From the NCBI RefSeq assembly GCF_000331025.1, contig NC_020055.1, forward strand, positions 919,870 to 983,869: DNA of 64,000 bases, given 5' to 3'. Positions within the stretch are counted from its first letter, which is position 1, and the number at the start of each line of letters is the position of its first letter. Made by a program: the position numbers and the translations under genes. Source of the stretch: Maridesulfovibrio hydrothermalis AM13 = DSM 14728. Lineage in GTDB: Bacteria; Desulfobacterota; Desulfovibrionia; Desulfovibrionales; Desulfovibrionaceae. The notes beneath the pieces were generated by a model. It was not told the origin of the DNA. It saw only the letters and a program-made list of their open reading frames with translations, and made no database searches. Positions 6,595-19,448 of this stretch are shown one piece after another.

Positions 6595-9129
6595 TTAAGG
6601 TTGATGAACGTAAGCAGAAGCTTCTTTATCCGACGCATATTTGTGAAACAGGGCTATCAGCAAGGCTATGCTTAAAGCAAAAAGATAGAATCCTTTCATC
6701 ATAGTTATCCCGCTGGCCCCCAAAGCATTCCCGAGCGTGAAAACAGTTGAAGCCACACCGAATCCAAGTGCAGTTGGAAAAAATATGGCAAAAATCATCC
6801 ATTTCCATGATCCGGTTTGCACTTTAACCATAATAGTCGCTGCAAAGCAGGGAGGATAAAGGGCAAAAAACAAAAGTACCGCCAAGGCGTGAAGCGAGGT
6901 CATACCGGAATGCTTTCCTTCGCTGCCCATACGCTGCTCAAGAGTCTGATTGTCAGCAGCTCCCTGCTGGTAAAGAACTCCCATAGTTGCCACGGACGAT
7001 TCGCGTGCGGCAAACGAACTTATCAGAGCAATATTTACTTTCCAGTCAAATCCGGCAAGCTGGGTTACCGGCTCAAGAGACCTGCCGATCATGCCAAAGA
7101 AAGAAACCTTGATCTTCTCTTCCTTGATTTTACGGCGCAAACTTTTGCGTACCGATGAGACTTTGCGCAAAGCACGGTTTACAAGTTTGGCCTCCTTATT
7201 GCCGCGCGGTTTGAGTATGGTGAACATTTCAGGATTTAATTCCTTGAATTTTGCATCAACTCTGGCAGCACCTGTTTTTCCGGACGAATTCATGCGCGCC
7301 CGTTTGTAATCATCATAAAAGTTAAGCAGAGTCAGCATTGCCGCAGGCTCGGAAACGGCTGCATACCCGGTCCCGGCAACCTTTGCATCAAAAACTGCCA
7401 CGGCTTTACTCATTTCATTTTCATAATAGTCCATGCGCTCTTCCCCCAGTCCGGGGAACTGCAAGAGCGAAAAGACGCAAAGAGAAACTGCCACAACAAT
7501 AGAACCGACTTTTTTGATGTACTCTAAAGTCCGCTCAATTGAACGCTGCATGACTCCAAAGAATGTAGGAGCATGATAATTGGGCATTTCCATGATAAAG
7601 GGGGCCGTCTCCCGTCCTTTAAGAACAGTCGAGGTCAAAAGCTTGGCGACTATCAATGCCATTATGATAGTGATAGTGGATATGAAAAACATAGCCCACG
7701 ATTTATTATCAGCAAAATAAATATTCACCAGCAGGGTATAAAGCGGAATCTTGGCCAGACAATTCATAAACGGAACCGTCAAAATAGTTGCCAGCCGCGA
7801 CCTCTCATCAGGAATCCCCTTAGTGGACATAATTCCGGGAACCGCGCATCCTCCGGCAAAAACTCCACCGAGAATAAATGGAAGTGTAGACTGTCCATGC
7901 AGGCCGAAACTATGAAAGATTCTGTCCAGAATAAATGCAATGCGGGCCATATAGCCAGAATCTTCCAAAATAGCGATCAATGCAAAAAGTATCAAAAAGA
8001 TAGGAACATAGTTGAGCAGGGTATTCGCACTGTCCACCATCCAAAGGCCCATGGACCGCAACAGGGAGTCTTCAATAAGCCCGGCTGAAGGAAGGACGTT
8101 TGCGACAATATCTCTGAACTTGGCTAAAACAGGCCAAGTATACATGGTCAGCTTGTAACCCTGAACAATTGAAAGTTCATAAATGAGATATACAGTTGCC
8201 AGCAAAAAAAACGGAGCCATAGCCCTGTTGAGAACCCAACGGTCTATGCGCTCTGAGATCGGCTGTTTAGTGTCATCTTCTTTTGAAAGACAAGCGTCTA
8301 CAATCTCACCGGCCAGCATATCACGGCAGGCGACAATGTAATCGCCGGTGTCGATATTGGATTTCTCTTCAAAAGCAACCCTTCGGCTGAGAGCCTCTTC
8401 AACTATTCTGCGCCCCTGCGTATGCTTGGTTTCAACAATCCTTCTGACTTCCGCATCATTTTCAAGAAGCTTAATCGCCAGCCAGCGCAATGGATACAAA
8501 ACACCTAAAGATGCCTCTTCTGCCAGCATAGCTTCTAAAGCCTGAACATGTTCTTCAAGCTCTCCATAATCAATAGTCACAGGACGGGCGTAAGTCTCCT
8601 GATTGACAGACTTTCTAATCGCAGCCTTAAGGGCTTGTTTTCCCTTGCCTTTACGCCCGACCGTAGCAACAACATCAACACCGAGACGAGAACTCAGCTC
8701 CTGAAGATCAATTGAAATACCCTGACTTTCTGCCACATCCATCATGTTAAGGGCGACAGTTACCGGAAAATTCATCTCCAGCACCTGAAAGGTAAAGTAC
8801 AGACTGCGACGCAGGCAGGTGGCATCCATTACATTGACTACAACGTCAGGCTTCTCCTCCAGCAAAAATTCACGGGAGACCCTTTCTTCCAATGAAAATG
8901 AAGTCAGGCTGTATGTTCCGGGCAGGTCCACAATCTCGTAACGGGTTTTTCCTTCACGATAACTGCCAACCTTTTTATCAACAGTTACACCGGGATAGTT
9001 GGCCACATGCTGATTGGCTCCGGTAAGCATATTGTAGGTTGTTGATTTCCCTGCATTCTGCTGACCTGCCAGTGCAACAAGAAAATTGTCTTTCAGCATC
9101 TTGTCTTTGTGGCTAGCTTCTTTGCTCAT
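6595..9129 (-). CDS. feoB: Ferrous iron transport protein B
   Basis: Inner-membrane Fe(II) transporter of 844 residues. The N-terminal G domain has G1 GQQNAGKST (about 22-30), G3 DLPG and G4 NMMD; the guanine-dissociation-inhibitor-like spacer follows, then the membrane domain with two Gate regions (G-C-A-V-P-G-I-M and the paired S-F-A-A-R-E-S-S-V motif). A long basic insertion around 640-690 (many K/R) lies between membrane segments and is larger than in the E. coli protein. Start ATG 9129 has GAGGTGG five bases upstream and overlaps the end of feoA by 17 bp, indicating coupled translation. Likely Fur-controlled through the site upstream of feoA. Confidence 0.97.
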   Translation of the reverse strand: MSKEASHKDKMLKDNFLVALAGQQNAGKSTTYNMLTGANQHVANYPGVTVDKKVGSYREGKTRYEIVDLPGTYSLTSFSLEERVSREFLLEEKPDVVVNVMDATCLRRSLYFTFQVLEMNFPVTVALNMMDVAESQGISIDLQELSSRLGVDVVATVGRKGKGKQALKAAIRKSVNQETYARPVTIDYGELEEHVQALEAMLAEEASLGVLYPLRWLAIKLLENDAEVRRIVETKHTQGRRIVEEALSRRVAFEEKSNIDTGDYIVACRDMLAGEIVDACLSKEDDTKQPISERIDRWVLNRAMAPFFLLATVYLIYELSIVQGYKLTMYTWPVLAKFRDIVANVLPSAGLIEDSLLRSMGLWMVDSANTLLNYVPIFLILFALIAILEDSGYMARIAFILDRIFHSFGLHGQSTLPFILGGVFAGGCAVPGIMSTKGIPDERSRLATILTVPFMNCLAKIPLYTLLVNIYFADNKSWAMFFISTITIIMALIVAKLLTSTVLKGRETAPFIMEMPNYHAPTFFGVMQRSIERTLEYIKKVGSIVVAVSLCVFSLLQFPGLGEERMDYYENEMSKAVAVFDAKVAGTGYAAVSEPAAMLTLLNFYDDYKRARMNSSGKTGAARVDAKFKELNPEMFTILKPRGNKEAKLVNRALRKVSSVRKSLRRKIKEEKIKVSFFGMIGRSLEPVTQLAGFDWKVNIALISSFAARESSVATMGVLYQQGAADNQTLEQRMGSEGKHSGMTSLHALAVLLFFALYPPCFAATIMVKVQTGSWKWMIFAIFFPTALGFGVASTVFTLGNALGASGITMMKGFYLFALSIALLIALFHKYASDKEASAYVHQP

Positions 9130-9454
9130 TATCCACCTCTATTTCGCAGGCTTCAGTGCGGCGTAACGTCACACAATAACCGGCCACTTTAAGTTCCAGC
9201 GGACACCCCAGAGTTGCAACCCTGACCACTTCAACCTCACGGCCCGGGACAAAACCCAGATCAAGCAAACGCTGGCGAACAGCCCCTTCTGAATAATGTC
9301 TTTTAATTGTAGCCCTGCTGCCTATGGGGATATCCAAAAGACTTGTCCCCCGCATATTGCAGTTTTTGCCACGTCTTCTGCCGCCACCATGACCGCGCTG
9401 TTTTCTCCTGCCGGAAAAAACTTCACGGTTAAAAAAATCAAATTTGTTGAACAT
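9113..9454 (-). CDS. feoA: FeoA protein with a basic N-terminal extension
   Basis: Small cytosolic SH3-like partner of FeoB, thought to modulate iron transport. I choose ATG 9454 (ribosome site GAGGCGG), giving 113 residues; a longer frame from 9508 would cover the Fur-type operator. Residues 38-110 are a normal FeoA domain (S-L-L-D-I-P-I-G-S then L-L-D-L-G-F-V-P-G). Residues 14-33 are an odd Arg/Gly-rich stretch (GRRKQRGHGGGRRRGK), not part of the usual 75-residue FeoA and possibly an RNA-, membrane- or FeoB-contacting tail. First gene of the operon; overlaps feoB. Confidence 0.92.
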   Translation of the reverse strand: MFNKFDFFNREVFSGRRKQRGHGGGRRRGKNCNMRGTSLLDIPIGSRATIKRHYSEGAVRQRLLDLGFVPGREVEVVRVATLGCPLELKVAGYCVTLRRTEACEIEVDNEQRS

Positions 9455-9483
9455 TTTAAACCGCCTCAATTTAATCTTCTTGA

Positions 9484-9537
9484 TTGTGAAATTGAAATTC
9501 GAAATCAACTAGTATCTAGCTGTTATTTACTTGTCAA
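9484..9537 (-). promoter_or_regulatory. feoA promoter with Fur-type repeat
   Basis: On the minus strand TTGACA (9537-9532) is followed after 17 bases by TACTAG (9514-9509), and directly downstream lies an A/T-rich repeat (9484-9508) built of TGAAAT-like hexamers. The same hexamer repeat recurs before fur and before the ferrosome-type genes, which supports a Fur operator. The remaining bases from 9538 to 9837, up to the next gene, show no gene or clear signal. Confidence 0.6.
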
Positions 9538-10892: not shown

Positions 10893-11126
10893 TTAAGATT
10901 TAACTCCATTTGCCATATCTGATTTGGCTTCATCCACAAGACGGGCCACCTCATCTTTGGCGCTGGTGTATTTCTTGCCGGCCCAATTGCTCGCCCTGAC
11001 CGAACCTCTGACAACTTTAGTCACTGCGGGCTTTACTCCGCCTGCTTTATAAACAGCATAGGCCGCAACTCCAACCACTGTAGCTGTTGTAGAGACCAAC
11101 AGCAATCTTCCAAGACTAAAACTCAT
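10893..11126 (-). CDS. Small single-helix membrane protein, DUF5132-like
   Basis: A 77-residue protein: hydrophobic helix about 6-25 (VSTTATVVGVAAYAVY), then G-G-V-K-P-A-V-T-K-V-V-R-G and an amphipathic, charged tail. The pattern, a Gly/Ala-rich helix followed by A-x-K-x-x-V-R-G and an acidic helix, resembles small DUF5132-type proteins found beside P-type ATPases, and it echoes the C-terminal halves of the two Q/P-rich proteins at 15.2-16.3 kb. Family assignment is tentative. A Fur-like sequence lies upstream at 11209-11224. Ribosome site is AGGAGG. Possible member of the iron-compartment set, transcribed separately. Confidence 0.65.
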   Translation of the reverse strand: MSFSLGRLLLVSTTATVVGVAAYAVYKAGGVKPAVTKVVRGSVRASNWAGKKYTSAKDEVARLVDEAKSDMANGVKS

Positions 11127-11208
11127 ATATTTTTCCTCCTAATCTTTTATTGTTTAAAATGCACAATTCACAGCTACCCCACCCTGAGTTTAAAATGCAA
11201 ACTCCGCA

Positions 11209-11224
11209 ATTGAAAACGATTTGC
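11209..11224 (-). promoter_or_regulatory. Fur-like site upstream of the 77-residue membrane protein
   Basis: ATTGAAAACGATTTGC matches the left half and core of the Fur-type palindrome found upstream of fur. It abuts the stop codon of fur and lies about 85 bp before the start of the downstream small gene on the minus strand. Confidence 0.4.
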
Positions 11225-11656
11225 TTATGCATCCCGACAACGGGCGCAGATTCCATAAAGAATCATCTTGTGTCTATTTAGCGTAAATCCATGCTTTTGG
11301 GCCAGAGACTCCTGCAAATCTTCAATGCGCTCTTCCACAACTTCAATTTTCATGTTGCAACGCACGCAAACCAGATGGTCATGATGCTGTTTGTTATAAC
11401 GGCATTCAAAACGCGTTACCCCGTCCCCGAAATCTAGGGATTCAGCTATACCGCTTTCCGCCAGAAGCTTTACCGTTCTGTAAACAGTTGCCGGGCTGAT
11501 AGTCGGATCCTGCTTGCAAACCTGCATATATAATTCTTCACATGAATGATGCCCGTCTGTGCCAAGAAAAACTTCCAGTACCACCCGACGCTGTTCAGTG
11601 GCTGCCATATTGTTTTTCGAAAGGTACTCTAAAAAAGCATGCTGAGGACTGAACAC
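11225..11656 (-). CDS. fur: Fur family metal-responsive repressor
   Basis: A 143-residue Fur-family DNA-binding protein. The winged helix occupies about 1-85 (P-A-T-V-Y-R-T-V-K-L-L recognition helix near 58-68). The dimerisation and metal domain carries H-H-D-H-L-V-C-V-R-C (structural Cys pair and metal-site His) and a second C-A-R-C near the C-terminus, which is the usual Fur layout with a Cys4 zinc site. GTG start at 11656 has AGGGGGA close upstream. Its own promoter bears a near-palindromic Fur-type site, suggesting autoregulation. Lying between feoAB and the ferrosome-like genes, it is the natural candidate for controlling both (inference); PerR or Zur specificity cannot be excluded from sequence alone. 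Confidence 0.9.
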   Translation of the reverse strand: MFSPQHAFLEYLSKNNMAATEQRRVVLEVFLGTDGHHSCEELYMQVCKQDPTISPATVYRTVKLLAESGIAESLDFGDGVTRFECRYNKQHHDHLVCVRCNMKIEVVEERIEDLQESLAQKHGFTLNRHKMILYGICARCRDA

Positions 11657-11685
11657 TCTTCCCCCTTTTATTTTAAAATAGAAAA

Positions 11686-11734
11686 TGAATGAAATTGAAA
11701 TTGACGACTATTATCAAGTGAAAACGATTGTCAA
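11686..11734 (-). promoter_or_regulatory. fur promoter with two Fur-type sites
   Basis: TGAAAACGATTGTCAA (11719-11734) is close to the TGA-x-AA-N2-ATT-x-TCA palindrome; its TTGACA on the minus strand can serve as the -35 element. A second site of three TGAAAT-like hexamers spans 11686-11704. Together they suggest autoregulation of fur. Confidence 0.55.
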
Positions 11735-11871
11735 CCCTGAGCGGACACTTTTAATCGCCAAATGATCAAAATTATGCGGCCATTACTATTCAATAAACTC
11801 TAACTGTACATGATTAGGCTTTATAAACAGTGGGTTAGCACAGCCACAGGTCAGGGCAGTATAAAAATGCA

Positions 11872-11884
11872 ATTGAAATTCAAT
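11872..11884 (+). promoter_or_regulatory. Fur-like palindrome upstream of the 115-residue membrane protein
   Basis: ATTGAAATTCAAT is a perfect 13-bp palindrome and sits just after a TATAAA box at 11861-11866. It uses the same hexamers as the sites before feoA and fur, and lies about 120 bp before ATG 12006. Confidence 0.5.
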
Positions 11885-11954
11885 CGTGCAGTTTCCCAAA
11901 AGAATGCTGAAAAGGCTAACTTAGACTCAGGATAAAAAATCACCAACTTTAAAC

Positions 11955-11988
11955 GGGGACAATATCCGGTAAGAACCGGATTATCCCC
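11955..11988 (+). other. Leader hairpin before the 115-residue membrane protein
   Basis: GGGGA-(bulge)-AT-TCCGGT pairs with ACCGGA-TT-A-TCCCC around an AAGA loop, ending four bases before the AAGGAG ribosome site of the gene at 12006. No T-run follows, so it is a 5' leader structure rather than a terminator; it may affect translation or RNA stability. Confidence 0.45.
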
Positions 11989-12005
11989 TGTAAGGAGAAA
12001 CTCAT

Positions 12006-12353
12006 ATGACTACAACAACCACAAGAATTCTTCCCGTCGTTACTGCCTCTGCTGCTGCAACCGGTGCACTGATAGGTGGAACTGTCGCAGCTGTGCGGGG
12101 AACCATTGCAGTTAAAGAAGGAAAAATGACTAAATGTGAAGCTGCCAAAGCTGTGGCTACAGAATCCGCCGGAACAGGGCTGGCTACTGCTGCCGGAATT
12201 GCTGTAACCGGACTGCTCGGAATTGGCGGAATTGTCGGCATTCTGGGATTTACTGTAGTTGCTACCGGAGCAAAAATGGCATGGGACAAGGCAGTTCCAG
12301 CATTTTCCACTGAGAATAAACCGGTAGCACTGTGTTCTGCTGAAAACAAATAA
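12006..12353 (+). CDS. Glycine-rich membrane protein, ferrosome-associated candidate
   Basis: A 115-residue hydrophobic protein with two Gly/Ala-rich helices (about 10-32, A-S-A-A-A-T-G-A-L-I-G-G, and 55-85, G-L-A-T-A-A-G-I-A-V-T-G-L-L-G-I-G-G) joined by a basic loop (K-E-G-K-M-T-K-C-E-A). Repeated G-x-x-x-G spacing suggests tight helix packing, as in magnetosome MamC-like and ferrosome-associated small proteins; I see no definite family. AAGGAG eight bases before ATG. It has its own Fur-like site, leader hairpin and terminator, so it is a separate transcript beside the ATPase operon. Role proposed from context: a compartment membrane protein. Confidence 0.7.
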   Translation: MTTTTTRILPVVTASAAATGALIGGTVAAVRGTIAVKEGKMTKCEAAKAVATESAGTGLATAAGIAVTGLLGIGGIVGILGFTVVATGAKMAWDKAVPAFSTENKPVALCSAENK

Positions 12354-12399
12354 GCTGCCCTGAGTAAAATGAAAGGGATTTACCCTTTAAACCGTATAA

Positions 12400-12444
12400 A
12401 AAGCATCAGGCCCGCCGCCGCTAGGCAGGTGAGCCTGATGCTTT
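12400..12444 (+). terminator. Terminator after the 115-residue membrane protein
   Basis: A 12-bp stem AAAGCATCAGGC/GCCTGATGCTTT with a GC-rich loop closes the transcript of the gene ending at 12353. The T-tract after it is short. Confidence 0.65.
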
Positions 12445-12546
12445 CAAATAAACACGCTGCCGGATAATCGTGATCCTGCTTTACCTGCAATGACCTCAAT
12501 CATTCATCATTTTACCTGAGAGCTTATGATTAAAATCAAATTTTCG

Positions 12547-12614
12547 TTGACAAAGAGTTTTCTCATTTGTATCTAGCATTTTCATGGTGTTGAGATTCAA
12601 TTTCAATATCAATA
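12547..12614 (+). promoter_or_regulatory. Promoter and Fur-like site of the ATPase operon
   Basis: TTGACA (12547-12552), 17-base spacer, TATCTA (12570-12575), then an A/T repeat at 12590-12614 containing ATTCAATTTCAATATCAAT, the reverse of the hexamers seen before feoA. The layout, promoter followed closely by the repeat, is the same as at feoA and suits Fur repression. Confidence 0.6.
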
Positions 12615-12656
12615 AATACTGATACAAAGTTCCAACAAAAAATCAGGACTAACAAA

Positions 12657-14855
12657 TTGAAAAAACAGCATAAAAAAGCCAGCATCAAGCATTCAATACC
12701 GGGTAGAATCAGGATTAAAATTCCGGATCTGAAAAAGAATCTTCTGCTTTGCAGCACCCTTGAACGGGGGCTTGAAAGAGTTGAAGGCATCAGACATACA
12801 AGAAGCAACGAAAAGTGTGCCTGCCTTATTATTCGCTACAATTCCAAATATATTTCACCTGAAATCGTCACCGAAACCGTCCTTGAGCTGGTTGGGATAC
12901 ACACCACTGAGACCTGCCCCATAAAGGGCAAAAGCGAATGCGGCTGCCCGCAGGTAAAGAGTGCCCTGCGTTACTTTTCATTTGTATCTGCTGTTGGAGG
13001 CGCAGTTCTCATAAGTGAATCACTGCTGGGACTGACCATCGCACAGACCCTTTTCAGTCCTCTTGGATTTTTAACTGTCCTCGCTGCCGCTCCGCTGGTT
13101 AAGGAGGCCGTGCAAAAAGCAAGAGAAAAGAAATTCGGCCTAGAAGGCATTCTGGCAGGTGGAATTATGGCTGCGGTCATTGCCGGAGAAGCCATGACCG
13201 CCTTTGAAATTCTGTGGATCAATGCAGGGGCGGAACTGCTGACGGCCTGGATTACCGAACGCTCCCGACAGGCCATTTCAGGTATTCTGGATAACACCAC
13301 CCATCATACTTTTGTCCTCAAAGACGGTGTTGAAGTCGAGGTTGAACTTAACAATGTACAAAAAGGTGATGTGGTCGTCCTGCACACCGGAGAGAAAATC
13401 TGCGTTGACGGCACTATTGTAGACGGTCAAGGGCTGATCAATGAAGCCCCTATCACCGGACGCGCCGATTTCATTCACAAAAAAATTGACGATCAGGTTT
13501 TTGCCGGAACCTTTGTGCGCGAAGGAGTCATATACGTAAAGGCCGAAGAAGTCGGTGACCGCACCTATCTGGCCCGCATACTTTATAAAGTTGAAGACTC
13601 CCTTGAAAATAAGACCGCTATTGAGTCCACTGCCGACAAACTTTCCGTACGTCTTGTTAAAATAGGTCTTGCCGCAACCATCGGGACTCTGCTGCTTACC
13701 CGTGATCCGTGGCGGGCATTTACGGTACTGCTGGTCATGGCCTGCCCCTGCGCGACCATTCTTTCCGCCTCCACTCCCATCAGTGCAGCAATTAACACCG
13801 CTGCCAGACACAATATCCTCATCAAAGGCGGTCGCTACCTCGAAGAGGTCGGAAGCTGCAACGTTGCCTGTTTTGATAAAACCGGAACTTTAACCGGAAA
13901 CGAGCCAAGTCTTGAGCAACTGCACACAATTAAAGGAATCGAAGAAAAAGAGATCCTGACTTATGCTTTCTCGGTTGAAACACACAACCACCACCCTCTT
14001 GCGCAGGCCATCAAGACCGAGGCTGACAAGCGTGATATAGTCCCGCTTCCTCATACGGTATGCGAATACTTTCTAGGTAAAGGCATGCGCGCCGAACTGC
14101 CGGGTCACAACGGTGATTCAATTGAAATTCTGGTCGGTAACAAAAAACTTACCGAACAGTTCGGTGTCCGCATCGGCTCTTTAAGCAGACAGGTCTCAGC
14201 CCTTAAACGCAAAGGACTGACTGTTCTCTACGTAATCAAAGATAAAGAACCCATCGGCCTCATGGCCTTTGCCAACACAGTCAGGGAAGGCTCCTATGAA
14301 GTACTTGCCTCTCTGGAGCAAAACGGTGTGGAGCGGACTGTCATGGTCACGGGCGACGAACCAGCCTCGGCAGCAAATCTTGCAGAGTCGCTGGGCATAA
14401 GCGAAATCCACGCCTCTGCCATGCCCGAAGAAAAAGCACAACTTGTACGCACCCTGCAAAAGGATGGCGGAAAAGTCATGATGGTCGGCGACGGCATCAA
14501 CGATGCTTTAGCCCTTGCGCAGGCCGATGTAGGCATTGCTATGGGAACCGGCGGAGCTGAAGTTGCGGTTGAAGCAGCAGATATCGCGCTGATTAACGAT
14601 GATCTGAACGGCCTGACTTATGTACAGCGTCTAAGTCAAGATACTGTAAAAATCGCTTATCAAAATTTCTGGCTGGCAACTGGATCAAATATTGTCGGAG
14701 TCGTTATGGGAGCCACCGGAGTTTTATCCCCGGTCATGGCTGGATTTCTGCACATTATCCATACCATAGGAGTCATTGCGAACTCCTCAAGACTGCTCAG
14801 TCATTCACCCAAAGCTATCGAACTTAACACAGGTAAAACAAATGAACTTTCATAA
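12657..14855 (+). CDS. P1B-type ATPase 1 with R-I-R motif, FezB-like
   Basis: Metal-pumping ATPase of 732 residues, from a TTG start (no better start upstream of the conserved N-terminus). The N-terminal HMA-like domain lacks C-x-x-C and carries H12-S-I-P-G-R17-I-R19-I-K; a Cys-rich linker (CPIKGKSECGCP, near 91-102) follows. Membrane site CPC at 363-365, phosphorylated Asp407 in DKTGTLT, HP locus H-H-P-L, and GDGIND are intact. The actuator loop that normally reads T-G-E is T-G-R here, an unusual change at the residue needed for dephosphorylation. R-x-R type N-termini are known from the ferrosome ATPases (P1B6, FezB), so iron loading of an internal compartment is the proposed job. First gene of the operon. 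Confidence 0.88.
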   Translation: MKKQHKKASIKHSIPGRIRIKIPDLKKNLLLCSTLERGLERVEGIRHTRSNEKCACLIIRYNSKYISPEIVTETVLELVGIHTTETCPIKGKSECGCPQVKSALRYFSFVSAVGGAVLISESLLGLTIAQTLFSPLGFLTVLAAAPLVKEAVQKAREKKFGLEGILAGGIMAAVIAGEAMTAFEILWINAGAELLTAWITERSRQAISGILDNTTHHTFVLKDGVEVEVELNNVQKGDVVVLHTGEKICVDGTIVDGQGLINEAPITGRADFIHKKIDDQVFAGTFVREGVIYVKAEEVGDRTYLARILYKVEDSLENKTAIESTADKLSVRLVKIGLAATIGTLLLTRDPWRAFTVLLVMACPCATILSASTPISAAINTAARHNILIKGGRYLEEVGSCNVACFDKTGTLTGNEPSLEQLHTIKGIEEKEILTYAFSVETHNHHPLAQAIKTEADKRDIVPLPHTVCEYFLGKGMRAELPGHNGDSIEILVGNKKLTEQFGVRIGSLSRQVSALKRKGLTVLYVIKDKEPIGLMAFANTVREGSYEVLASLEQNGVERTVMVTGDEPASAANLAESLGISEIHASAMPEEKAQLVRTLQKDGGKVMMVGDGINDALALAQADVGIAMGTGGAEVAVEAADIALINDDLNGLTYVQRLSQDTVKIAYQNFWLATGSNIVGVVMGATGVLSPVMAGFLHIIHTIGVIANSSRLLSHSPKAIELNTGKTNELS

Positions 14856-15159
14856 ACTGGTCGAGCTGGAAAAATATCTCGATGTAGCCCACCACGTACC
14901 GGGACGCATCCGGGTAAAATTCAGTCCATTAATCTTAACCAAACCCGCAGCTCTTGCTGCCATGCGGGACCATTGCGAACTCCCCGCAGCAATTCTCAGT
15001 GCAAGGCTCAACACCGCAGCCCGTTCAGTAGTAATCGAATACAATCCGGACGAAATTCTCCCCGAGGTCATTGAAGAATTAATCCAGGGACAAGATAAAA
15101 GCAAAAAAGTTGAAATCATCAGTGAACTGTATGGCAGGCTGATGAACCACCCCACATAA
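14842..15159 (+). CDS. Stand-alone HMA-like domain protein with R-I-R motif
   Basis: 105 residues from ATG 14842, which overlaps the end of the ATPase gene by 14 bp. It corresponds to the N-terminal domain of the two ATPases without the pump: HHVPGR22-I-R24-VK, then a beta-alpha-beta stretch (A-R-L-N-T-A-A-R-S-V-V-I-E-Y-N-P-D) that matches the HMA fold order. It has a single Cys (in H-C-E-L) and no metal-binding Cys pair, so a normal copper/zinc chaperone role is unlikely. Most simply it is an adaptor that docks on the same partner as the ATPase N-termini (inference). A longer in-frame start at 14776 lies inside the ATPase gene and is rejected. Confidence 0.75.
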   Translation: MNFHKLVELEKYLDVAHHVPGRIRVKFSPLILTKPAALAAMRDHCELPAAILSARLNTAARSVVIEYNPDEILPEVIEELIQGQDKSKKVEIISELYGRLMNHPT

Positions 15160-15192
15160 AAACATAAAAGTTTTAAAAATAAGGAGCATATG

Positions 15193-15924
15193 ATGTCTAC
15201 CGAACACACAGAGACAGAACAGCAGCCTCAGGAAACAACCGCGCCCCAGCAGCCCTATACTGCGCAGCCGGTAATGGGTCCAGACATGGGCCAGCCGCAT
15301 TTTTCCTATACAACTCCCGGTGATCCGTATCAGGGTGCTCCGGTTTCCGGTTACGTCCAGACCGATATATACGGTCAACCAGTAATGGGACAACCCGTTC
15401 AACAGCCAGTTCAGCAACCTGTTCAGCAGCCAGTTCAGCAACCAGCGCAGCAGCCAATGCAACAGCCGGTTTATTACGGTCAGCCGGCTTATCAGCAGCC
15501 CGTCTACCAGCAGCCGATATATCAGCAGCCGATGCAGCAGCCGATATATCAGCAGCCGTTGCAACAGCCAATACAGCAACCTTTACAGCAGCCGACACAA
15601 CAGGTTCCTCCGGCAGCTCCCAGTGCGTCTGAAGATCAGGTCAAACAATTTGTAGATCTGGTTAAAGATACAGCTGAAGGAAAGGCTGATCCGTCAAGTT
15701 TTATTAATTTTTTCAATGGAATTGATGACAGCTTCTGGAAAGGACTTCTCGTAGGTGCTGGCATTACCTTTGTATGCACCAGCAAAACGGTAAGATCCAT
15801 CTTCACCTCCGGTGGAACCGAGGAAATGTCAGCCGAAGAAGCCGAGAGACTCGAAGATCTCAAGGCAGAACAAGAATATAAAGCAGCTCAGGCAGCCAAA
15901 ACAGCCGAAGCTGAGAAGGAGTAA
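15193..15924 (+). CDS. Q/P-rich low-complexity protein with a C-terminal membrane motif
   Basis: About 243 residues; AAGGAG lies six bases before ATG 15193 (ATG 15190 is also possible). Residues about 1-60 are polar; 60-140 form an array of short P-V-Q-Q / Q-Q-P units rich in Gln, Pro and Tyr and surely disordered. Then comes an acidic helix, a hydrophobic segment with W-K-G-L-L-V-G-A-G (near 188-196), and an acidic E/A/K-rich tail that may form a coiled coil. I know no named family. The next gene has the same architecture in shorter form. Proposed role, from context, is a scaffold or surface coat of an iron compartment. Confidence 0.75.
   Translation: MSTEHTETEQQPQETTAPQQPYTAQPVMGPDMGQPHFSYTTPGDPYQGAPVSGYVQTDIYGQPVMGQPVQQPVQQPVQQPVQQPAQQPMQQPVYYGQPAYQQPVYQQPIYQQPMQQPIYQQPLQQPIQQPLQQPTQQVPPAAPSASEDQVKQFVDLVKDTAEGKADPSSFINFFNGIDDSFWKGLLVGAGITFVCTSKTVRSIFTSGGTEEMSAEEAERLEDLKAEQEYKAAQAAKTAEAEKE
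15379..15603 (+). repeat. Coding tandem repeat of Gln-Gln-Pro units
   Basis: Imperfect 12-base units such as GTTCAGCAGCCA encode P-V-Q-Q and Y-Q-Q-P repeats. The array is degenerate, lies in frame within the gene, and probably varies in length between strains. Confidence 0.85.
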
Positions 15925-15928
15925 TTAA

Positions 15929-16276
15929 ATGAGCCAAGACTACAACAACGACTACACATATTATTATCAGGATCCACGCATCACTGCACAGCAGCAGGTA
16001 GATACCTACCAGCAGGTCCAGCCCGTTCAATCTGTTCAGCCCGTTCAACAGGTCGAACCACCATCCACAGTACAAAGCTGGGTGGATGTAAAAGATTCAC
16101 GTTATCTTAAAGGGTTCTTAGTCGGTGCTGGAGTAGCACTGGTGGCATCCAACCCGACTGTGCAGAAAGCAGTGGTATCCGGCACTGTAAAGCTCTGGTC
16201 TGCGCTGCAGGGCGGAATCGAAGAAGCTAAAGAGAAAATTCAGGACATCAAAGCCGAAGTAAACGAGACTGAATAG
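15929..16276 (+). CDS. Short Q/P-rich protein with the same membrane motif, DUF5132-like
   Basis: 115 residues, four bases after the preceding stop. N-terminus is Tyr/Asn/Gln-rich (DYTYYYQDP), followed by V-Q-P-V-Q repeats to about 48. Residues 60-80 read L-K-G-F-L-V-G-A-G-V-A-L-V-A-S, matching position by position the motif of the previous gene, followed by A-V-V-S-G-T and an acidic amphipathic tail. The C-terminal half resembles small DUF5132-type proteins. It is almost certainly a shortened paralogue of its neighbour. Function unknown; location in the ATPase operon suggests the same compartment. Confidence 0.75.
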   Translation: MSQDYNNDYTYYYQDPRITAQQQVDTYQQVQPVQSVQPVQQVEPPSTVQSWVDVKDSRYLKGFLVGAGVALVASNPTVQKAVVSGTVKLWSALQGGIEEAKEKIQDIKAEVNETE

Positions 16277-16294
16277 TTAAGATAGCCTATTACA

Positions 16295-16329
16295 GGAGTG
16301 GCGGAGGGCCGCAGGCTCTTTGCCACTCC
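16295..16329 (+). other. Intra-operon hairpin
   Basis: GGAGTGGC (16295-16302) pairs with GCCACTCC (16322-16329), with an inner stem AGGGCC/GGCTCT. No T-run follows. It lies between two genes of the ATPase operon and may set differential expression by RNA processing or masking of a ribosome site. Confidence 0.55.
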
Positions 16330-16348
16330 GGAGGTTTCTGCAAAAGAG

Positions 16349-16606
16349 ATGAACACTTTCCCGGAACAGACACAAACAAAAGAGAAAAAAACTTTCCGCC
16401 AGTGCAAAGACTGTCCACTTGTGCCCAGTAAGACTAAGACAGCAGCCAAAGTTGGAATGGTTGCCACTCTCGGCGCATCAGCGGCTTCAGGAATATTGAA
16501 ATTCAAAGGAGCAAGAGCACTGCACATTTGGGCTTCTTTTGCCTTTGTCGGCTTTACAGCGTTGCACTATGCGGTCTCCCGCAAACCGAAAAGGACTGCA
16601 AAATGA
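16349..16606 (+). CDS. Small membrane protein with C-x-x-C and paired His
   Basis: 85 residues from ATG 16349; the longer GTG 16298 frame begins inside the hairpin and has no spaced ribosome site. It has a polar N-terminus with C-K-D-C-P, then a Gly/Ala helix (V-G-M-V-A-T-L-G-A-S-A-A-S-G) and a second helix H-I-W-A-S-F-A-F-V-G-F-T-A-L-H-Y. Two His about 16 residues apart in a helix are reminiscent of one helix pair of small haem-binding DUF4405-like membrane proteins; this is only a resemblance. Its stop overlaps the next start as ATGA, so it is translationally coupled to the second ATPase. Confidence 0.65.
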   Translation: MNTFPEQTQTKEKKTFRQCKDCPLVPSKTKTAAKVGMVATLGASAASGILKFKGARALHIWASFAFVGFTALHYAVSRKPKRTAK

Positions 16607-18732
16607 TTGGAATTCCCCATAGAAGAAAGCGGTTTGAGATTATTCACGAACTGCCGCGCAGGATCAGATTTAAATCACTGATCATGCTGACTCCGACTCT
16701 GGACCTCAACTATCTGCAAGCCAGTGTTGAGTCTTTGTCAGGAGTTAAGTCGGTCAGAATTAACGGACCTGCTTTTACCCTCGTTGTAGAGTATGACGGG
16801 TCGCCAGCAGTCAGGGCTGCAATTATTAAGACCCTGCAATTCATACCAGATGAAGCTTTTCTTGATAACAACGAAAAGAAGCATGATGTTGATCTTTTTG
16901 ATGTAGGAGCCAGAACCGCGGTGGCTGCCGCTACTCCATTTCTACCCGTTCCTGTACAGGCTGCAACCAGCTGGATGCTGGCCATTCCCGGTATTGTCCA
17001 AGGGCTTGAAACACTTTTTACCAGAGGCGTAAAAATTGAAGTGCTGGATGGAACGGTCAAAACCCTGTCCATGCTTCGCGGCGACTATTTCACTTCAAAC
17101 TCTGTAGGAGCCTTGCTCAGCCTCGGCGAATACCTTGAAGATCAGTCTGAACAAAAATCTACCGATCTGCTGAAAACTCTTTTAAAACCGCAAGTTGATA
17201 AAATATGGATTGAACAGGACGGACGCGAAATTGAAATAGACTTCAAAGACTTAAAGGTCGGCAACATTGTGATTTGCGGCCCCGGTGAATTGATCCCCAT
17301 TGAAGGGACTATTATTGAAGGTGACGGATCTATCAACCAAAGCTCCATTACCGGAGAATCTGTTCCGGTTCATCTACAACCCGGTGACGCAACACTTTCC
17401 GGAGCTGTTGTCGAAGAAGGAACCCTTAAAATAAGGGCAGACAAAGTCGGAGCGGAAACAGGCATGGCCCGTATCAACCGCTTCCTTGAAAGTTCTCTGC
17501 GCTCTCAATCCAAAAGTCAGGTTAAGTCCGCTGAACTTGCCGACAAATTAGTTCCGCTCACTTTCGGGGCCGGTCTTGGCGTTTATGCTCTGACCAGAGA
17601 CGCCGCCCGCGCCGCATCGGTTTTAACAGTCGATTACTCCTGCGCTATCAAACTTTCAACTCCTGTTGCCACCAGAACATCCATGTACACCGCAAGTCAG
17701 GCCGGCGTGCTGCTAAAAGGCGGTCAGGCTCTTGATAATCTTGCCGCCATCGATACTCTCGTTTTTGACAAAACCGGAACACTGACCAAAGGTGAGCTGA
17801 AAGTAACCGACCTTGTACCCATGCCGCTTTTCTCCGAAGAGGAACTGCTCTCTATAGCGGCCGGCGCGGAAGAACATTATGCTCATCCCGTTGCCAGAGC
17901 TGTTGTCAATGAAGCAAAAGAACGCGATATTGCCCTGCCGGATGTCGGGGGTGTTGACTTCATCGTAGCCCACGGCGTTTCTGCATATGTTGACGGGAAG
18001 CGCGTTCTTGTCGGCAGCCAGCATTTCGTTGAAGAAGATGAGAAAGTAAATTGCGCATTCATGAAGAAAAAAGCACAGCAGCTCAGAAATGCCGGAAAAA
18101 ATCTTCTGTTTGTCGCCATGAATGAAAAACTTATCGGCCTTATTGCCATGCGTGATGAACTCCGTCCTGAAGCTTTGGAGGCTCTGGAAGCTTTCAAGGC
18201 GGCAGGTATCAAACGAATTGAAATACTTACCGGAGATCACCGCTCAACAGCACTGGCCCTTGCCGCTCAGCTTCCCCCTGTGGACGCCGTTCATTGGGAA
18301 CTGAAACCGGAAGATAAGGCTGCCATCGTAAAAGATCTTAAAAAAGGCGGCGCGAAAGTAGGATTTGCCGGAGACGGAGTAAATGACACTCCCGCTCTGG
18401 TCTGCGCAGATGTAGGTATCTGCATGCCGTCCGGAGCCGATCTGGCCAGAGAATCAGCTCAGGTTATTATGTTGAATGAAGATATGCGCACCCTCGTGGA
18501 AGCACGCCGCATAGCCGTCAACAACCGCGAAACCCTCTCCTCCTGCCTGTGGTCCGCTGTAGTCATCAACTCCGCAACCCTGCTTCTGGCAGGCATGGGC
18601 AAAATCTCCACTCTTGCGGCTGCCATGACTCATAATTTGAGCACCGTTGGAATTCTCGGATACGCAGCTCTCAAAACGTCAAATACTACCTACAAAGCTG
18701 AACCACTAGAGTCTGCAAAGGAGACCACATAA
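16603..18732 (+). CDS. P1B-type ATPase 2 with R-I-R motif and SCA membrane site
   Basis: 709 residues from ATG 16603 (ATGA overlap with the preceding stop). N-terminus HELPRR20-I-R22-FK matches the first ATPase and the small domain protein. The catalytic machinery is complete: TGES in the actuator, phosphorylated Asp389 in DKTGTLT, H-P-V-A HP motif, GDGVND. The metal-site motif in the central helix reads S346-C-A348 instead of the common CPC or SPC, so the metal coordination differs from that of ATPase 1. It has no Cys-rich linker. Best guess is a FezB/P1B6-type iron pump; it may work with, or as a heteromer of, ATPase 1. The TAATG overlap at its end couples it to the FeoA-like gene. Confidence 0.88.
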   Translation: MIGIPHRRKRFEIIHELPRRIRFKSLIMLTPTLDLNYLQASVESLSGVKSVRINGPAFTLVVEYDGSPAVRAAIIKTLQFIPDEAFLDNNEKKHDVDLFDVGARTAVAAATPFLPVPVQAATSWMLAIPGIVQGLETLFTRGVKIEVLDGTVKTLSMLRGDYFTSNSVGALLSLGEYLEDQSEQKSTDLLKTLLKPQVDKIWIEQDGREIEIDFKDLKVGNIVICGPGELIPIEGTIIEGDGSINQSSITGESVPVHLQPGDATLSGAVVEEGTLKIRADKVGAETGMARINRFLESSLRSQSKSQVKSAELADKLVPLTFGAGLGVYALTRDAARAASVLTVDYSCAIKLSTPVATRTSMYTASQAGVLLKGGQALDNLAAIDTLVFDKTGTLTKGELKVTDLVPMPLFSEEELLSIAAGAEEHYAHPVARAVVNEAKERDIALPDVGGVDFIVAHGVSAYVDGKRVLVGSQHFVEEDEKVNCAFMKKKAQQLRNAGKNLLFVAMNEKLIGLIAMRDELRPEALEALEAFKAAGIKRIEILTGDHRSTALALAAQLPPVDAVHWELKPEDKAAIVKDLKKGGAKVGFAGDGVNDTPALVCADVGICMPSGADLARESAQVIMLNEDMRTLVEARRIAVNNRETLSSCLWSAVVINSATLLLAGMGKISTLAAAMTHNLSTVGILGYAALKTSNTTYKAEPLESAKETT

Positions 18733-19448
18733 TGCTCATTCCGTTAAGCAAAGCTCCCATCGAAACAATGCTGACCCTGAAATCCATAAGTTGCAGCAAT
18801 CTTAAAAACCGCCTGCAACGCATGGGACTGCACACTGGAACCGAATTGGAAATCATGTCCGAAGATTCCATACAGCATCCTGTCAGGGTTAAAGGACCGA
18901 AGGGTGAAGTTCTTCTCGCCGCCGGCATGGCCTCTAAAGTTATAACCCATCATGATGACGGGCACATCACCCCGGTATTTGAAATGAATCCCGGAGAAAC
19001 CGGGCATATCGAAGGTTTGACCGCAGGGTCACATCTGGAAAAAAGCCTTAAAATACTAGGCATCAGCGAAGGTGACAACATTGAGCTGGTTCGTTGTCTG
19101 CCCCCAATGGAATACAAAACAGTGGTCGACGGCAGACAAACCAGCCTGACCGAAGGTATGGCTGCAAAGATATGGGGAGACTGCGATAACACCCCCTGCC
19201 AACTGGCAACCTGCGGCAAGGGGCGGCTTTTCAAGGTAAAAAATATTCTTGGAGGACCCAGAGCAGTCCAGACTATATCAGCAGCGGGAATCCGCCCCGG
19301 TTCGACCATAACTCTCGAATCAGTGCAACCAGCAAAAGATATCCGCATGGACAACGGCGAACGAATTATCATCCGCACCAAGGATGGACTCAGACTGCAC
19401 CTGCGGATTGATCAGGCAGACACTTTACTTGTCGAGCAGATTCAGTAG
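18732..19448 (+). CDS. Protein of three tandem FeoA-like domains
   Basis: 238 residues starting in a TAATG overlap with the ATPase stop. Three SH3-like FeoA units are visible: about 8-78 (L-K-N-R-L-Q-R-M-G-L-H-T-G), 84-155 (L-K-I-L-G-I-S-E-G-D, M-A-A-K-I-W-G-D) and 163-236 (I-S-A-A-G-I-R-P-G-S, L-H-L-R-I-D-Q-A-D). Each carries the [ML]-G-[ILF]-x-x-G hairpin typical of FeoA. A short Cys cluster (C-D-N-T-P-C-Q-L-A-T-C) links units 2 and 3. FeoA domains normally act on FeoB or on DtxR-type repressors; a triple form next to iron-type ATPases suggests a regulator of the pumps (inference). Last gene of the operon, convergent with rlmN. Confidence 0.85.
   Translation: MLIPLSKAPIETMLTLKSISCSNLKNRLQRMGLHTGTELEIMSEDSIQHPVRVKGPKGEVLLAAGMASKVITHHDDGHITPVFEMNPGETGHIEGLTAGSHLEKSLKILGISEGDNIELVRCLPPMEYKTVVDGRQTSLTEGMAAKIWGDCDNTPCQLATCGKGRLFKVKNILGGPRAVQTISAAGIRPGSTITLESVQPAKDIRMDNGERIIIRTKDGLRLHLRIDQADTLLVEQIQ

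Follow-up and report, generated by a model that had tools for sequence, protein, structure and literature searches.

A stretch of 64,000 nucleotides from Maridesulfovibrio hydrothermalis AM13 = DSM 14728 (contig NC_020055.1, positions 919,870 to 983,869; hereafter the window, numbered from its first letter) carries a locus that, judging from homology, can with good confidence be regarded as an extended ferrosome (fez) locus; the stretch probably encodes a larger form of iron-storage compartment than the best-known ferrosome. Its core is a compact operon on the forward strand (12657–19448) with overlapping or closely spaced genes, which are given the working names ATP1, HMA2s, QP1, QP2, C4405, ATP2, and FeoA3. 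Relative to fezABC, homology indicates that the locus adds a MamC-like protein, a split FezC, a triple FeoA, and a partner ATPase that lacks the glutamate of the TGE motif. A first-pass annotation had proposed a probable ferrosome locus here, and this proposal is supported by homologues of FezB, of both FezC halves, and likely of FezA. The parts that it listed were recovered by Pfam and NCBIfam searches at or near the positions that it gave, namely a Fur regulator, two P1B ATPases with R-x-R N-termini, and a multi-FeoA protein, and the Gly/Ala-rich and Q/P-rich small proteins that it described, the latter as disordered, are present among the open reading frames. Its list is extended here by a YtxH-like gene (10893–11126), a separate HMA_2 protein (14842–15159), and the MamC and DUF4405 resemblances.

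The FezB-type (P1B-6) ATPase of the locus is, by its position in a tree, ATP2 (16603–18732, forward strand; TIGR01525, E = 2e-135), which contains DYSCAIKLSTP in the fourth transmembrane segment (TM4) and an intact TGE motif. The tree comprised 102 protein rows from loci of our choosing and was built by a quick search with Shimodaira–Hasegawa-like approximate likelihood ratio (SH-aLRT) support; FixI and Nia form long branches, and no P1B-4 reference is included, as pMOL30 and two roseobacter plasmid stretches yielded none. The reference names CopF, FixI, and Nia are presumptive or read from motifs, and the class names P1B-1 (Cu), P1B-2 (Zn/Cd), P1B-5 (Nia), and P1B-6 (FezB-type) are likewise presumptive. 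ATP2, the ATPase of six-gene fez-type clusters, FezB, and ATP2b (a third ATPase found in relatives) form one clade with a support of 100, while ATP1 forms its own clade, also with a support of 100, adjoining the FezB clade. Both clades lie, together with rows L061 and L150, inside a group supported at 99, outside which CopA, CopF, FixI, ZntA, CadA, and Nia are placed. A copper/zinc efflux pair was therefore rejected, since neither ATPase groups with any of these six references. The comparison with copper, zinc, and cobalt clades suggested in the first-pass annotation thus leaves the ferrosome reading standing, with P1B-4 (cobalt) outside the tree. In TM4, Ser replaces the Pro of C-P-C in 55 of the 56 ATP2 rows and in all 72 FezB-type rows. 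The R-x-R stretches at the N-termini read PGRIR in ATP1 and PRRIR in ATP2, and the Pfam HMA_2 match in this part of the protein is above the cutoff in ATP1 (9.6e-15) and below it in ATP2 (2.4e-4). At E 0.001, three E1-E2 ATPase matches occur in the host genome (3.7 Mb): ATP1, ATP2, and one elsewhere that is CopA-like by motif.

Genome G664, which we take to be that of Desulfovibrio magneticus RS-1, has a single FezB-like match that scores higher than the other P1B ATPases of that genome, and this match sits in a three-gene locus (L179) whose products of 86, 743, and 146 amino acids are named FezA, FezB, and FezC here from gene order and profiles. Profiles built without RS-1 from the fezABC-like loci of other genomes score 98 bits against RS-1 FezA and 93 bits against RS-1 FezC. 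The hidden Markov model of ATP2 scores 520 bits against RS-1 FezB, and an alignment covering 557 residues of ATP2 shows 37% identity between the two proteins. RS-1 makes ferrosomes (PMC12748827). The window locus resembles RS-1 fezABC in the FezB-type ATPase, which shares one clade with ATP2, in the FezA-like and FezC-like proteins, and in the bacterial family. It differs in that RS-1 has three genes with a fused FezC, whereas the window has a split FezC together with ATP1, the MamC-like protein, QP1, and the triple FeoA.

The small proteins of the operon extend this correspondence. By profile comparison, FezC is split here into two genes, HMA2s and C4405, so that both halves are present. HMA2s (14842–15159, forward strand) is a free HMA_2 domain protein of 105 amino acids with an HHVPGRIRVK stretch; its Pfam HMA_2 match (5e-6) lies below the cutoff, and profile–profile comparison matches it to the N-terminal half of FezC (P = 97%, E = 1.6e-10). 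C4405 (16349–16606, forward strand) is a small DUF4405-like protein of 85 amino acids, or 102 if translation starts at the GTG at 16298. Its DUF4405 match has E = 0.0012, which is below the cutoff. The protein matches the heme half of FezC (P = 94%), and its hidden Markov model scores 34 bits against RS-1 FezC (E = 4e-8). According to PMC10979944, FezC is a heme b cytochrome that has a relationship to DUF4405. Two histidines 14 residues apart are invariant in C4405 (37/37) and in FezC-type proteins (21/21); C4405 is predicted to be a two-His heme-type protein that binds heme. In the window genus, C4405 has CKDCP (C-x2-C) before its membrane part, and most other C4405 proteins are without it. 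QP2 (15929–16276, forward strand), which has a Q-rich N-terminus, and the YtxH-like membrane protein of 77 amino acids (10893–11126, reverse strand), which is kept beside fur in the genus, are likely FezA homologues, given their profile matches to fezABC-type FezA (P = 84%, E = 8e-6 and P = 91%, E = 1e-6, respectively); the model of the YtxH-like protein scores 18 bits against RS-1 FezA (E = 2e-3). QP1 (15190–15924, forward strand), with a Q/P-rich N-terminus and a C-terminal membrane segment, matches QP2 (P = 98%, E = 7e-14), as does the YtxH-like protein (74%), but its match to FezA is at P = 3.6%, which speaks against QP1 being FezA. Four control pairs of unlike families gave 0.2–15.5%.

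The MamC-like membrane protein (12006–12353, forward strand; 115 amino acids) lies upstream of the ATP1 operon and matches NCBIfam MamC (NF038051) with 42.8 bits (E = 4.7e-11) over 82 of the 97 positions, and is the single match to this model in the host genome at 0.01. All 22 aligned MamC-like members match the model, the best with 3.2e-20; apart from MamC, a single family has matches among these members. At 1e-5, the model matches 12 of 395 genomes of the phylum (the host included) and none of 14 control genomes, and in 11 of these 12 genomes the gene is located beside fez-type genes. AlphaFold predicts helices at residues 3–37, 43–71, and 76–96 that form a helical hairpin at moderate confidence (mean predicted local distance difference test score of 73.8), and the topology of MamC is described as a helical hairpin with a short loop (PMC6206293). 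The protein thus resembles MamC (Mms13) of magnetosomes in a weak but consistent profile match and a predicted hairpin with a short loop; it differs in scoring far below the equivalog cutoff and in residing in a fez-type cluster, and the likeness is drawn through the model rather than by direct comparison with a true MamC. A sequence search of the PDB with the protein gave chance-level matches only, and a plasmid search with it gave none.

ATP1 (12657–14855, forward strand; TIGR01525, E = 1e-144) is a divergent P1B ATPase with ACPCATILSASTP in TM4, in which TGE is replaced by TGR, the Arg codon lying at 13461–13463. At this position, the 42 readable ATP1 rows have R in 38, V in two, N in one, and Q in one, and hence Glu in 0 of 42; all 144 remaining aligned rows retain the Glu (72 FezB-type, 56 ATP2, 9 ATP2b, and 7 references, among which is the CopA-like protein of the host genome). 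These rows include some genomes fetched under two identifiers; a recount of 40 distinct ATP1 proteins gave 36 with R, one each with N, V, and Q, and one cut off before the site, so that 39 of 39 readable proteins lack the Glu. The non-fez P1B proteins of the studied loci have it in 24 of 24 cases; these 24 again include the seven references. All 43 ATP1 rows retain the Asp of DKTGT, the HP motif, the GDGxND aspartate, and the CPC of TM4. In ATP7A, the TGE motif serves dephosphorylation (PMC5428812), and the KdpB variant E161Q, in which this Glu is changed to Gln, has no ATPase activity but retains a stable phosphoenzyme (PMC7535926). As the CPC site and the phosphorylation machinery are kept and the TGE Glu is absent, a long-lived phosphoenzyme would be expected, and ATP1 is possibly a P-type ATPase that runs slowly or is locked. 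The same position is changed, with the other motifs intact, in laboratory mutants such as KdpB E161Q (PMC7535926); unlike in them, the change in ATP1 occurs naturally and is conserved across an entire clade. The first-pass annotation had spoken of two pumps: two P1B ATPases are indeed encoded, but the missing TGE glutamate of ATP1 makes it doubtful that both are pumps.

The cluster is conserved well beyond the window. An ATP2-level match was found in 12 of 17 genomes of the window genus (the host included), a contig end in one further genome of the genus (L025) carries the ATP1 side of the cluster, and nine additional loci close to that of the window preserve the full gene order. A scan of named genomes with the TM4 region of FezB, of which the best 80 of 181 relatives were kept, placed the two-ATPase cluster in Desulfovibrionales, Desulfarculaceae (Dethiosulfatarculus, Desulfocarbo), Desulfonema, Desulfatirhabdium, and a KSB3 bin. 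Near ATP2 in 41 loci, ATP1 was found in 36, HMA2s in 34, QP1, the MamC-like gene, QP2, and C4405 in 37 each, and FeoA3 in 39; this count covers ATP2 with at least 7.5 kb upstream at thresholds set by us, includes some genomes under two identifiers, and contains six loci found via the MamC search. The four loci without QP1, QP2, C4405, and the MamC-like gene are from Chromatiaceae (L052, L053, L055, and L060). Two of them, in Halochromatium and Thiohalocapsa (L052 and L060), have ATP2 and FeoA3 as a pair of genes, and none of the other cluster genes was found there; this suggests that FeoA3 (18732–19448, forward strand; three FeoA-domain stretches, Pfam FeoA 5.5e-25) works with the pump; the other two have a FezC-like match nearby. 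A 5 kb contig labelled Heimdallarchaeota (L071), perhaps misbinned, also carries ATP2 and FeoA3. In several relatives, the third ATPase, ATP2b, lies close behind FeoA3 (L032:12329–14413, L034:12644–14728, L042, L043, L050, L051, and L054); it has DFACAVKFPAP or alike in TM4 and forms a separate clade adjoining ATP2. Among the genomes of the nine additional loci with the full order, G003 and G008 have the version with ATP2b as a further cluster, and two other genomes, G002 and G015, have this version only.

Within the family, the cluster types tend to be mutually exclusive, as judged from homology searches. Of 288 genomes, 180 have a match at 1e-105, which is at ATP2 level in 44 and not at ATP2 level in 136; tallied by hand from the table, 43 genomes have this cluster only, 136 another FezB only, one (G222) both, and 108 neither (Fisher p = 1e-12, uncorrected for descent). 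In two genera, g293 (5 with this cluster versus 7 with another FezB) and g5 (7 versus 6), 12 genomes stand against 13, and none was found with both. With RS-1 FezB as the query, the 12 ATP2-level genomes of these genera gave matches at 1e-90 only at the places of ATP2, ATP2b, or ATP1, and hence have no fezABC-like locus at this threshold. The six other g5 genomes have HMA2s, FezA-like, and FezB genes with a FezC-like gene on the opposite strand, and a weak MamC-like match (17–23 bits) in five of the six. The suggestion in the first-pass annotation of a distinct ferrosome type is borne out by the two ATPases, the MamC-like protein, the triple FeoA, and the split FezC, together with the occurrence of this cluster and of other FezB loci in different species of the two genera.

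Candidate Fur control of the locus is possible, given conserved Fur-like sites. The Fur family regulator (11225–11656, reverse strand; Pfam FUR 7.2e-34) is conserved in position, and the gap between fur and the MamC-like gene contains Fur-box-like elements (11702–11733), with an exact match to TGANAANNATTNTCA at 11719–11733 and a match with one mismatch at 11702–11716. With at most one mismatch, TGANAANNATTNTCA has 13 matches in the whole window against 2.5 expected, a count equalled or exceeded in 0 of 100 shuffles, where palindromic sites were scored on both strands in the window and the shuffles alike; the Fur-like sites noted in the first pass are therefore above chance. A second pattern, derived from the ATP1 promoter, has three matches against 0.57 expected and constitutes weaker evidence because 4 of 100 shuffles equal or exceed this count. 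Both intergenic regions, between fur and the MamC-like gene and before ATP1, contain conserved blocks that the window shares with 10 orthologous loci; in these 11 aligned loci, the TTGAGATTCAATTTCAATATCAA element (12590–12612, forward strand), a possible Fur site upstream of the ATP1 operon, is placed behind a conserved TTGACA. In C. difficile, fezA and fezB are repressed by Fur (PMC12574912). When the region was scanned for promoters and terminators in general, it scored no higher than its shuffled versions. A hairpin (GCATCAGGC/GCCTGATGC) after the MamC-like gene at 12403–12441, read by eye and absent from the terminator scan, is possibly a terminator or attenuator ahead of the ATP1 operon, and an inverted repeat (GGAGTGGC/GCCACTCC) between QP2 and C4405 at 16295–16329, also read by eye, has a possible GTG start inside it. 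On the opposite strand from the MamC-like gene, fur and the YtxH-like gene are followed by a GGDEF gene and by feoAB for ferrous iron import (6595–9508, reverse strand), the latter named from sequence reading without a family search and conserved as neighbours in the genus.

Larger fez clusters are known from Alphaproteobacteria, and RPA2333–2338 of R. palustris are given as six fez genes (PMC12016538). We infer that six-gene fez-type clusters of Rhodobium orientis (L079) and of an Azospirillum brasilense plasmid (L132) equal this operon. Both resemble the window in combining HMA_2-type proteins with a FezB-type ATPase; the Rhodobium cluster also has two MamC-like proteins and QP1-like and QP2-like proteins, and the Azospirillum cluster a YtxH/QP2-like protein. 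Unlike the window, the fetched stretches of both contain neither ATP1 nor FeoA3, and in Azospirillum HMA_2 and a weak DUF4405 match (E = 0.046) occur in a single protein and there is no MamC match. On the Azospirillum plasmid (p3, 0.7 Mb), the six-gene cluster adjoins annotated iron ATP-binding cassette transporter genes. The literature on ferrosomes and on MamC outside magnetotactic bacteria, as far as it was covered, contains no two-ATPase or MamC-bearing ferrosome cluster; this coverage is partial, so an earlier description is possible.

Several explanations compete with an extended ferrosome locus. P1B ATPases are mostly exporters, and some bacteria control iron export by Fur, so the operon might serve iron efflux or detoxification at the cytoplasmic membrane without forming an organelle; this is rather improbable, as the FezA- and FezC-like partners QP2 and C4405 accompany ATP2 in 37 of 41 loci and RS-1, with its related fezABC, makes ferrosomes (PMC12748827). 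A magnetosome-like or magnetite-making island, to which the MamC-like protein and the nearby feoAB could point, was rejected as very improbable, because NCBIfam and Pfam scans of the 10 block proteins (10893–19448), the part of the genome so searched, name no other magnetosome family. Conversely, the MamC resemblance might be a chance likeness of Gly/Ala-rich hairpins, the small proteins being unrelated to magnetosomes: the composition is simple, the score of 42.8 bits compares with a curated cutoff of 100, and 0 of 395 phylum genomes exceed that cutoff. Chance was nevertheless rejected and is considered unlikely, given the matches of all 22 members to the model, the coverage of most of its positions by the window protein, the near absence of other matching families, and the restriction of matches to phylum genomes, 11 of 12 with the gene beside fez-type genes and the controls with none. 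Some observations do weigh against the extended-ferrosome reading or parts of it, beginning with this MamC score below the curated cutoff. The gene with the best MamC-like score of the phylum search (L147:2776–3153) sits on a 7.5 kb contig that lacks fez genes, where a protein of 451 amino acids, coiled-coil-like by eye, lies upstream of it, and another MamC-like gene (L156) has QP1- and QP2-like neighbours alone, at a contig end. The QP2–FezA match is modest (P = 84%), the DUF4405 score of C4405 is below the curated cutoff, and common descent may account for part of the exclusion between cluster types, which comes from a family count that scored at most three candidates per genome.

A further point on that side concerns ATP1, as 38 of the 39 readable distinct ATP1 proteins have D or E two places after the lost Glu. 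This acid could replace the TGE Glu and make ATP1 an ordinary pump: in a TGR-x-D/E arrangement, it would handle dephosphorylation, and the CPC site would carry another metal or step, such as iron release. The remaining catalytic motifs are kept, and the spread of the clade over several groups argues against decay, so a normal second pump is a serious alternative, although one that we hold to be less probable than not. It is opposed by the retention of the TGE Glu in all 144 other aligned rows and all 24 non-fez P1B proteins (seven references being shared), by the inactive KdpB Glu-to-Gln mutant with its stable phosphoenzyme (PMC7535926), and by the ATP1 of L149, which has neither the TGE Glu nor the acid at +2.

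Under the extended-ferrosome reading, iron shortage would lead Fur to release the operon, and QP1, QP2, and the MamC-like protein, as small hairpin or tailed proteins, would be inserted in the vesicle membrane. ATP2 would then move Fe2+, imported by FeoB, into the vesicles; the C4405 heme would alter the redox state of the iron so that it can be stored or released, the MamC-like loop would face the lumen and limit or template the mineral, and FeoA3 would tune ATP2. ATP1 would probably not cycle like an ordinary pump but act as a slow, gated, or regulatory partner. More tentatively, the locus might represent a distinct type of ferrosome, in which a MamC-family protein contributes to shaping the iron mineral, ferrosomes and magnetosomes are linked by descent, and the TGE-less ATP1 is not a pump but a phosphorylation-locked metal sensor or gate over the FezB pump. 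With a MamC-type protein in a fez setting, a common origin of the two iron organelles becomes testable, an entire clade of TGE-less P1B ATPases amounts to a natural experiment on P-type ATPases deprived of their usual reset, and a wide-ranging second cluster type that replaces other FezB loci in close relatives would provide natural comparisons.

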